From Kangiella marina (lineage in GTDB: Bacteria; Pseudomonadota; Gammaproteobacteria; Enterobacterales; Kangiellaceae), in assembly GCF_039541235.1 (NCBI RefSeq), contig NZ_BAABFV010000001.1, positions 1,426,001-1,490,000 on the forward strand: a DNA stretch of 64,000 bases, given 5' to 3'. Both the position numbers and the translations under genes were made by a program. The notes below the pieces were generated by a model, which saw only the letters and a list, made by a program, of their open reading frames with translations, did no database searches and was not told where the DNA came from. Shown here piece after piece: positions 47,438 to 49,090 of the stretch; position 1 is the first letter of the stretch; every line of letters begins with the position of its first letter.

Positions 47438-48289
47438 TTAATGAATGGCGTTCTTAATTTTGTTCATAGCATTTTTTTCTAATTGGCGAATACGCTCAGC
47501 AGAAACGTCATATTTATCCGCTAATTCATGCAAGGTTGCTTTTTGATCGCTTAACCAACGCTGCTGAAGAATGTCTTGGCTGCGCTCATCCAATGTTTTA
47601 AGGGCGAACATCAAACGTTCTTCGCGTTGTCCTTGCCATTGGTTTTGCTCTACTTCTTCTGCAGGATCGGCATTACTCGCTTCCAAATAATGCACGGGAG
47701 CGTATGCGGATTCTGAATCGTCGTCTTGAGCGGGTGCGTCAAACGTCGCATCACGAGCATTCAAGCGCCCTTCCATTCGGCGAACTTCTTCAGGTTTAAC
47801 CCCTAAATCGTCAGCAACAGCTTTAACTTCCTCATTATTTAACCAGTTCAAAGACTTCTTCTTTGAGCGAAGGTTAAAGAATAGTTTGCGCTGGGCTTTG
47901 GTTGTGGCAACTTTCACGATGCGCCAGTTACGCAATACATATTCATGTATTTCCGCTTTAATCCAGTGCACAGCGAAAGATACTAGGCGCACACCAACCG
48001 TCGGATCAAAACGTTTTACGGCTTTCATCAAACCAATGTTGCCTTCTTGGATAAGGTCTGCTTGTGGAAGACCATAACCACTGTAGCTTCTAGCAATGTG
48101 GACAACAAAGCGTAAGTGAGCCATTACTAACTGGCGAGCAGCTTCAAGATCGCCTTCGTCTTTAAAGCGGTGCGCTAGCGCCTGTTCATCTTCAACGGAG
48201 AGAACAGGAATCGCGTTGACGGTACTGACGTAACCGTCAATACTGCCAGTCGGTACTGCTAGCGCCATGTTCATTGGGATATTACTCAT
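47438..48289 (-). CDS. rpoH: RNA polymerase heat-shock sigma factor sigma-32
   Basis: Alternative sigma factor that directs RNA polymerase to heat-shock promoters. The 283 residues contain sigma regions 2 and 4 and the diagnostic RpoH box QRKLFFNLR (residues 133-141). The C-terminal helix-turn-helix ends [14 protein letters not shown]. The Shine-Dalgarno is a strong AGGAGGGG. Upstream lie two tandem CIRCE operators, an arrangement not found for E. coli rpoH, whose mRNA is controlled by a thermosensor. It has its own terminator and is separated from ftsX by a YceI gene; in E. coli rpoH directly follows ftsX. Confidence 0.97.
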
Positions 48290-48324
48290 TCATCCCCTCC
48301 TAATATTAATCGTTAGCTACGATG

Positions 48325-48351
48325 TTAGCACTCTTTTTTGGAGAGTGCTAA
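48325..48351. promoter_or_regulatory. CIRCE operator 1 (HrcA site) upstream of rpoH
   Basis: TTAGCACTC, nine bases, GAGTGCTAA: a perfect CIRCE element, the binding site of the heat-shock repressor HrcA. It lies 35 nt upstream of the rpoH ATG, inside the likely transcribed leader. Confidence 0.93.
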
Positions 48352-48355
48352 TGTT

Positions 48356-48382
48356 TTAGCACTTTGTCTATAAGAGTGCTAA
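48356..48382. promoter_or_regulatory. CIRCE operator 2 (HrcA site) upstream of rpoH
   Basis: TTAGCACTT, nine bases, GAGTGCTAA: one mismatch from the CIRCE consensus. Its centre is 31 bp from that of the first site, about three helical turns, so two repressor dimers would face the same side of the DNA. It abuts a possible -10 on the minus strand. Confidence 0.88.
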
Positions 48383-48412
48383 CTATAGCAAAAGTTTCAG
48401 CCTATTGATCAA
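48382..48412 (-). promoter_or_regulatory. Candidate rpoH promoter
   Basis: On the minus strand an extended -10 (TGCTATAGT, 48382-48390) lies 19 nt from TTGATC (48407-48412). The spacer is longer than ideal. Transcription from here would start inside CIRCE site 2, the usual place for HrcA repression. Confidence 0.4.
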
Positions 48413-48459
48413 AAATGGGGTAAAGAAATGTCAAGATTGACGGGGCTTTGATCGAAAGT

Positions 48460-48481
48460 GTGACTGGCGGTAACCAGTCAC
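48460..48481 (-). terminator. Possible terminator after the yceI-like gene
   Basis: A perfect 8-bp inverted repeat GTGACTGG/CCAGTCAC with a 6-nt loop, about 30 nt beyond the stop codon. It lacks a clear T-run, so it is only a weak candidate. Confidence 0.4.
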
Positions 48482-48511
48482 TTATCAAGACTGTTTTGTG
48501 TTCCGGATTTA

Positions 48512-49090
48512 TTACTTAGCTGACGCTTCAACTTCAATAATAAGATGAACGTCATCAGCTACCGCTGGAACACCGTAAGTCATTCCCCACTCCGAGCGCT
48601 TAATGGTGCCGCGAGCGGAAAAACCGACGTGTTGTTGCTCCGACATTGGGTGAATGCCAGCTTTATTAAGCGTTAGGTCCAATGTGACAGGCTGGGTTTT
48701 GCCTAAAATGGTTAAGTCGCCATGCAATACGCCAGTATTATCGCCTGTTTTTTCGAGCTTTGTGCTGGTAAAAGTTAGGCGCGAGAATTTATCGACATGC
48801 AGAAAGTCAGCGGATTTCATGTGATCGTTCCACTTGGTATTTTCTAAGTCGATGGAGGCAGCTTTAATTTCGACGTGAGTGGATGATTTCGACCAGTCAT
48901 CTTGGTCAAAGGTCAGGTCGCCACGGAATGTCGGGAACTTACCAAAAGAATTTGAAAATCCAAGGTGATTAACTTTAAAAACGATTTGACTGTGTACGGT
49001 ATCAAATTCGTATTCAACAGGCTCGGCGACTGAAGCGGTTGAGAAAGCCAGTACACTCGAGGCAACGAGGCCCTTAATGAGATTGTTCAT
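48512..49090 (-). CDS. YceI-family periplasmic protein
   Basis: 192-residue exported protein with a signal peptide (about residues 1-22, cleavage after SVA). The body is the YceI lipocalin-like fold that binds long isoprenoids: YEFDTVHSQIVFKVNHLGFS at the start, FRGDLTFD and later KSADFLHVDKF. The function in cells is unclear; proposed roles are isoprenoid binding or stress response. It interrupts the otherwise conserved ftsYEX-rpoH order and is followed by a weak hairpin. Confidence 0.92.
   Translation of the reverse strand: MNNLIKGLVASSVLAFSTASVAEPVEYEFDTVHSQIVFKVNHLGFSNSFGKFPTFRGDLTFDQDDWSKSSTHVEIKAASIDLENTKWNDHMKSADFLHVDKFSRLTFTSTKLEKTGDNTGVLHGDLTILGKTQPVTLDLTLNKAGIHPMSEQQHVGFSARGTIKRSEWGMTYGVPAVADDVHLIIEVEASAK

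Follow-up and report, generated by a model that had tools for sequence, protein, structure and literature searches.

The window analysed here, a stretch of 64 kb from the genome of Kangiella marina, harbours on its minus strand a gene for the heat-shock sigma factor sigma-32, preceded by two copies of the CIRCE operator (Table 1). The product scores above the cut-off of the curated RpoH model and also matches PRK06596 (444.3 bits, cut-off 241). Beyond the rpoH leader lie a yceI-like gene, which scored below its model cut-off, and ftsX, ftsE and ftsY; since ftsX likewise adjoins rpoH in E. coli, the locus looks like the standard arrangement with an inserted yceI-like gene. Searching for CIRCE in the form TTAGCACTC-N9-GAGTGCTAA returned one copy without mismatches and one with a single mismatch, spaced 31 bp start-to-start and located 36-93 bp upstream of the rpoH ATG, and no further copy at up to three mismatches in the 64 kb. 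The mean number of copies expected in the window by chance is 0.02, and two copies were obtained in none of 100 dinucleotide shuffles. The tandem described in a previous sequence-only reading, one perfect and one imperfect copy upstream of a genuine rpoH, is therefore confirmed. That reading had also placed the pair between a promoter and the start of rpoH; the upstream position stands, but the simple in-between placement does not, since the promoter-side operator overlaps the best promoter candidate, a GAAACTT-N16-TCTTA arrangement that agrees with the sigma-E promoter layout at one mismatch.

Table 1. Features of the rpoH upstream region in the Kangiella marina window
Feature	Position	Strand	Remarks
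rpoH, heat-shock sigma factor sigma-32	47438..48289	-	283 aa; TIGR02392 412.6 bits (cut-off 323.1)
Shine-Dalgarno AGGAGGGG of rpoH	48294..48301	-	read by eye
CIRCE operator 2, start-codon side	48325..48351	.	perfect, 18/18 arm bases
CIRCE operator 1, promoter side	48356..48382	.	one mismatch; overlaps predicted -10
Predicted transcription start, inside CIRCE 1	48363..48366	-	inferred from -10 position
Sigma-E type -10 box TCTTA	48371..48375	-	16 bp after -35; TC within CIRCE left arm
Sigma-E type -35 box GAAACTT	48392..48398	-	sequence match, one mismatch to GGAACTT

The genome (2.51 Mb in two contigs) encodes the cognate repressor HrcA (PF01628, E 3.5e-64; TIGR00331, 315.8 bits, cut-off 197.2), and grpE follows hrcA on the same strand. 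A genome-wide scan for CIRCE at up to three mismatches located three places, each with 0 or 1 mismatch, two of them at rpoH and one upstream of groES-groEL (locus L003), so that operator, repressor gene and the groESL site of an HrcA/CIRCE regulon coexist in one genome. Both the search for hrcA and the scan of all CIRCE sites had been put forward as checks in the sequence-only reading, and both turned out in its favour; its statement that E. coli lacks HrcA is likewise borne out, E. coli not being among the control genomes that matched in the HrcA profile search. As the reversed control pattern occurred in two places at up to three mismatches, and in none at up to two, sites with two or three mismatches mean little by themselves. 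No CIRCE was detected at hrcA-grpE at up to four mismatches across the 3.7 kb locus, nor at dnaK in the genome-wide scan at up to three. Since the three CIRCE places of the genome lie there, groESL and rpoH are the predicted direct targets of HrcA. About 116 bases upstream of hrcA (locus L004) a sigma-32-like CTTGTAA-N13-CCACATTT, a match to consensus only, was observed; such a promoter would close a negative loop in which HrcA is a product of the very sigma factor that it represses.

Within the Kangiellaceae, CIRCE at up to two mismatches was present somewhere in all 40 genomes searched, and rpoH was found in 37 of them. The comparison of rpoH upstreams in related genera, also proposed earlier, revealed at least one CIRCE (up to four mismatches) before rpoH in 37/37 upstreams, one upstream per genome. 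All 20 Kangiella genomes carry two rpoH operators at 31 bp, with varying spacer bases, and in other genera of the family either a pair at 30, 31 or 33 bp or just one site was seen. When these upstreams were aligned, GAAACTT recurred ahead of the first CIRCE, and a unit of the form [A/G]AACTT-N15..17-TC occurs in 35 of the 37. In 24 upstreams the first base of this unit precedes CIRCE by 16 or 17 bases, and CIRCE then supplies the TC; the 11 other units lie further upstream, clear of CIRCE with their -10 included; both boxes are thus conserved apart from the operator. Two further features of these loci were noted. A second, broken rpoH-like copy (L016, G012:C30:5499-6281), with 54% identity to the RpoH of the window and seven in-frame stops, keeps upstream of it a perfect CIRCE and another with four mismatches 31 bp away. 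In 17 Kangiella leaders a three-pair stem surrounds the Shine-Dalgarno sequence and start codon of rpoH, one of its pairs being A-U in 10 and G-C in 6 of them but disrupted in the remaining one, which makes an RNA thermometer possible at this position.

Beyond the family, a draw of 149 genomes from 148 genera of the class Gammaproteobacteria, at a completeness of at least 90%, contained rpoH in 139 genomes and hrcA in 110, and yielded 140 rpoH upstreams of about 500 bases each (278 for one). CIRCE at up to three mismatches was found at rpoH in 95 of the 103 genomes with hrcA versus five of the 36 rpoH genomes without detected hrcA (Fisher p 1.8e-18, a value that overstates independence because the genomes are related). 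Counted per upstream, the former figure is 95/104, genome G430 having two rpoH copies, one of them without CIRCE. A reversed-arm control gave no hit in the 140 upstreams, and mononucleotide shuffles, scanned at the laxer limit of four mismatches, gave 10 in 7000. The operator is therefore widespread at rpoH in this class. Three more hrcA-bearing class genomes from a phylum-level draw (G621, G750 and G757) have an rpoH CIRCE with 0-2 mismatches. That draw also supplied 21 rpoH loci from class genomes without hrcA, some of them shared with the class draw, and CIRCE at up to three mismatches is absent from all 21.

The exceptions are few in both directions. Eight hrcA-bearing genomes of the class draw show no CIRCE at rpoH, and in two of these (G511 and G435) a single right arm has apparently been kept. 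Among the five genomes with the operator and no detected hrcA, a fragment of hrcA is present at the edge of a contig in G492; in G533, G526, G414 and G473 no hrcA was found, a second search included, and G563, a congener of G414, has the gene. Assembly gaps or orphan operators are options for these four. Outside the class, where the draw comprised 65 hrcA-bearing genomes, 40 hrcA-bearing rpoH upstreams were chosen by us among the matches listed, one copy each. CIRCE at up to three mismatches occurred in six of the 40, all six among the eight genomes of family f203, and the other 32 upstreams among those listed had none at that limit; two further loci outside the class, L274 and L275, had no CIRCE either.

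The association between operator and promoter extends to the class as well. It was assessed in the 100 CIRCE-bearing class upstreams (95 with hrcA and five without detected hrcA) using the -35 box alone, since a combined sigma-E score becomes partly circular once the TC of the -10 comes from CIRCE itself. GGAACTT at up to one mismatch lies at a fixed distance from CIRCE, at -16 in 39 upstreams and at -17 in nine, and occurs 14 times in all at the remaining 51 offsets from -60 to -8; 52 upstreams have no in-register -35 at this stringency. The CIRCE spacer is biased in a corresponding manner, with T at position 1 in 70, A at position 3 in 77 and both in 51 of the 100, so that TCTNA is completed. 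On the strength of the -35 register peak and the spacer bias, operator and promoter appear to share bases in about half of this sample. In the same upstreams, the three bases after the right arm are biased to AAT (A in 68, A in 76 and T in 88 of 100), and no mirror bias is seen on the left side. Among 31 class upstreams lacking both hrcA and CIRCE, a good sigma-E unit (score of at least 9/10) was present in six, versus 6/155 in shuffles; with so few, the sigma-E promoter is not generally kept after loss of hrcA. In E. coli, TGAACTT-N16-TCTGA stands 121 bases ahead of rpoH and CIRCE is absent, the best match having eight mismatches. In the accessible part of PMC8103513, rpoH P3 of E. coli is described as sigma-E dependent and as the promoter through which sigma-E was found.

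At groESL the operator is combined with another kind of promoter. Of 11 Kangiellaceae groES loci (L003 1501-1560 and ten others), 10 have the right arm of CIRCE within a sigma-32-like TTGAG-N14-CCCCA, and the eleventh has an N in this stretch. The possibility that the rpoH CIRCE likewise overlies a sigma-32 promoter was considered and rejected, TTGAG-N13..15-CCCCA being found in none of the 100 class upstreams. Because the groESL form is missing from all 100 rpoH operators, a single operator seems to be tied to two promoter types, sigma-32 type at groESL and sigma-E type at rpoH.

Close tandems at rpoH are mainly a Kangiellaceae trait. The few pairs outside the family are spaced 33 bp in G076 (L057), 34 bp in Catenovulum sediminis (L068), 32 bp in G408 and 42 bp in G556, and a weaker second CIRCE (three to four mismatches) is present in G450 and G538, at 30 and 31 bp respectively. 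The idea of tandems as a common feature was rejected, the exact tandem core occurring in two of 274 class genomes, one of which is that of K. marina. In an order-level draw the core matched in 27 of 394 genomes, 23 times at rpoH (22 Kangiellaceae and G076) and once at groES, and three of the matches contain no CIRCE at up to four mismatches. Of 39 named stretches that carry close tandems, 14 are at rpoH, 19 at groES/groEL and one at hrcA, and five had no match to the five query proteins. The tandem distances, of about three or four helical turns, suggest that HrcA dimers may lie on one face of the DNA, few as the cases outside the family are.

These observations make it probable that the HrcA operators lie on a sigma-E type rpoH promoter, and that HrcA would gate sigma-E driven transcription of rpoH and release groESL along with it. 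HrcA could also repress rpoH through CIRCE while transcription starts from a sigma-70 or other promoter, the GAAACTT-N16-TCTTA unit being unused. This is the reading to which the 52 class upstreams without an in-register -35 and the scarcity of good sigma-E units in hrcA-less upstreams would point, yet it leaves unexplained the sharp class-wide positional peak of the -35, the sigma-E unit preserved intact further upstream in 11 Kangiellaceae and the agreement of this unit with E. coli P3. A sigma-70 promoter was itself sought and rejected, no match being scored in 48250-48600, which is a weak point given that shuffles average only 0.8. On balance, we regard a different promoter as unlikely.

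It is far less plausible that CIRCE acts mainly as an RNA element, forming a leader hairpin through which the stability or translation of the rpoH mRNA is set. The predicted leader (48257-48365, minus strand) does fold better than shuffles (z -3.79), and all 17 Kangiella leaders aligned (of 20) retain the CIRCE 2 hairpin, with one end pair broken in one of them; but DNA palindromes fold as RNA by default, the commonest register would leave the promoter-side CIRCE with its left arm ahead of the predicted start and hence untranscribed, and CIRCE follows hrcA across genomes. Least credible is that the operators are relicts, inherited and unused, and that rpoH is governed by other promoters together with sigma-32 turnover, since both sites persist at a constant 31 bp in all 20 Kangiella genomes while the bases of the spacers vary.

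Under HrcA gating of a sigma-E type promoter, HrcA bound to CIRCE 1 would cover the -10 box and the predicted start and block the sigma-E polymerase at rpoH. CIRCE 2, about three helical turns further on in the predicted leader, may accommodate a second, phased dimer that tightens the block, possibly through cooperative binding, or may act as a roadblock. The activity of HrcA in Bacillus is reportedly GroE-dependent, as ascribed to work by Mogk in 1997. By analogy, occupation of GroE by unfolded protein, upon heat or misfolding, would cause HrcA to leave rpoH and groESL together. In Campylobacter jejuni, the accessible portion of one report states that heating abolishes HrcA binding and that GroE helps HrcA (PMC8533110). 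The sigma-32 thus produced would then also drive groESL, whose CIRCE overlies a promoter of sigma-32 type, and HrcA and sigma-32 would form at groESL a coherent feed-forward loop, which is more than a chain. The sequence-only reading had envisaged a repressor placed over the activator, with heat acting on HrcA, HrcA on sigma-32 and sigma-32 on all other heat-shock genes. The sites, hrcA and their conservation support such a circuit in part, and its chain-only form would give way to the predicted feed-forward loop because groESL carries a CIRCE of its own. Envelope stress would constitute a second input, should transcription from the rpoH promoter depend on sigma-E.

The element with shared bases may, moreover, represent the ancestral control of rpoH in the Gammaproteobacteria (in the GTDB sense), operating as an AND gate on sigma-32, in which full firing of rpoH would need both envelope stress, freeing sigma-E, and cytoplasmic misfolding, removing HrcA; E. 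coli would have kept P3 and lost the lock. We consider the case for this extension evenly balanced, having lowered our estimate because a good sigma-E unit is retained in only six of the 31 upstreams without hrcA and CIRCE.

As a bare idea, CIRCE at rpoH is not new. In the sections of Rodionov et al. 2004 that were accessible (PMC545781, Table 8), a perfect CIRCE upstream of rpoH (-51) is predicted from sequence in Geobacter sulfurreducens, and groESL is named as the sole constant target of HrcA. As presented there, the case is one species and one site, without a linked promoter, whereas in the Gammaproteobacteria the operator is class-wide, partly tandem and set at a constant distance from a promoter of sigma-E type. 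E. coli rpoH P3 shares the GAACTT-N16-TCTGA layout and the ftsX neighbour and differs in having neither CIRCE nor an HrcA match. Classical HrcA/CIRCE control of the groESL and dnaK operons involves the same operator and repressor family, but in K. marina one target is an activator gene, and hrcA-grpE and dnaK are without CIRCE. In C. jejuni, where HspR and HrcA act together, the partner of HrcA is a second repressor and not a sigma factor, according to the available portion of the report (PMC8533110). Literature mentioning HrcA, CIRCE and rpoH together, as far as its accessible parts extend and with subscription journals thinly covered, reports neither a class-wide link nor a shared sigma-E/CIRCE element, and within it PMC545781 stands alone in assigning a CIRCE to rpoH. 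The 32 CIRCE-free upstreams outside the class may belong with a further known case. In Agrobacterium, an alphaproteobacterium, RpoH and HrcA are said, in the title of a study, to be 'differential and independent', and such independence would fit those upstreams, if they are alphaproteobacterial.

The repressor HrcA and the activator sigma-32 are commonly treated as heat-shock systems that run in parallel, and most knowledge of sigma-32 derives from E. coli. In most of the hrcA-bearing relatives sampled here, the two circuits appear instead to be wired in series. If HrcA does control rpoH in most hrcA-bearing Gammaproteobacteria, E. coli is the exception, and its loss of HrcA would leave the post-transcriptional control of sigma-32 carrying the load. 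The shared-base element makes the integration of envelope and cytoplasmic stress at a single promoter directly testable.
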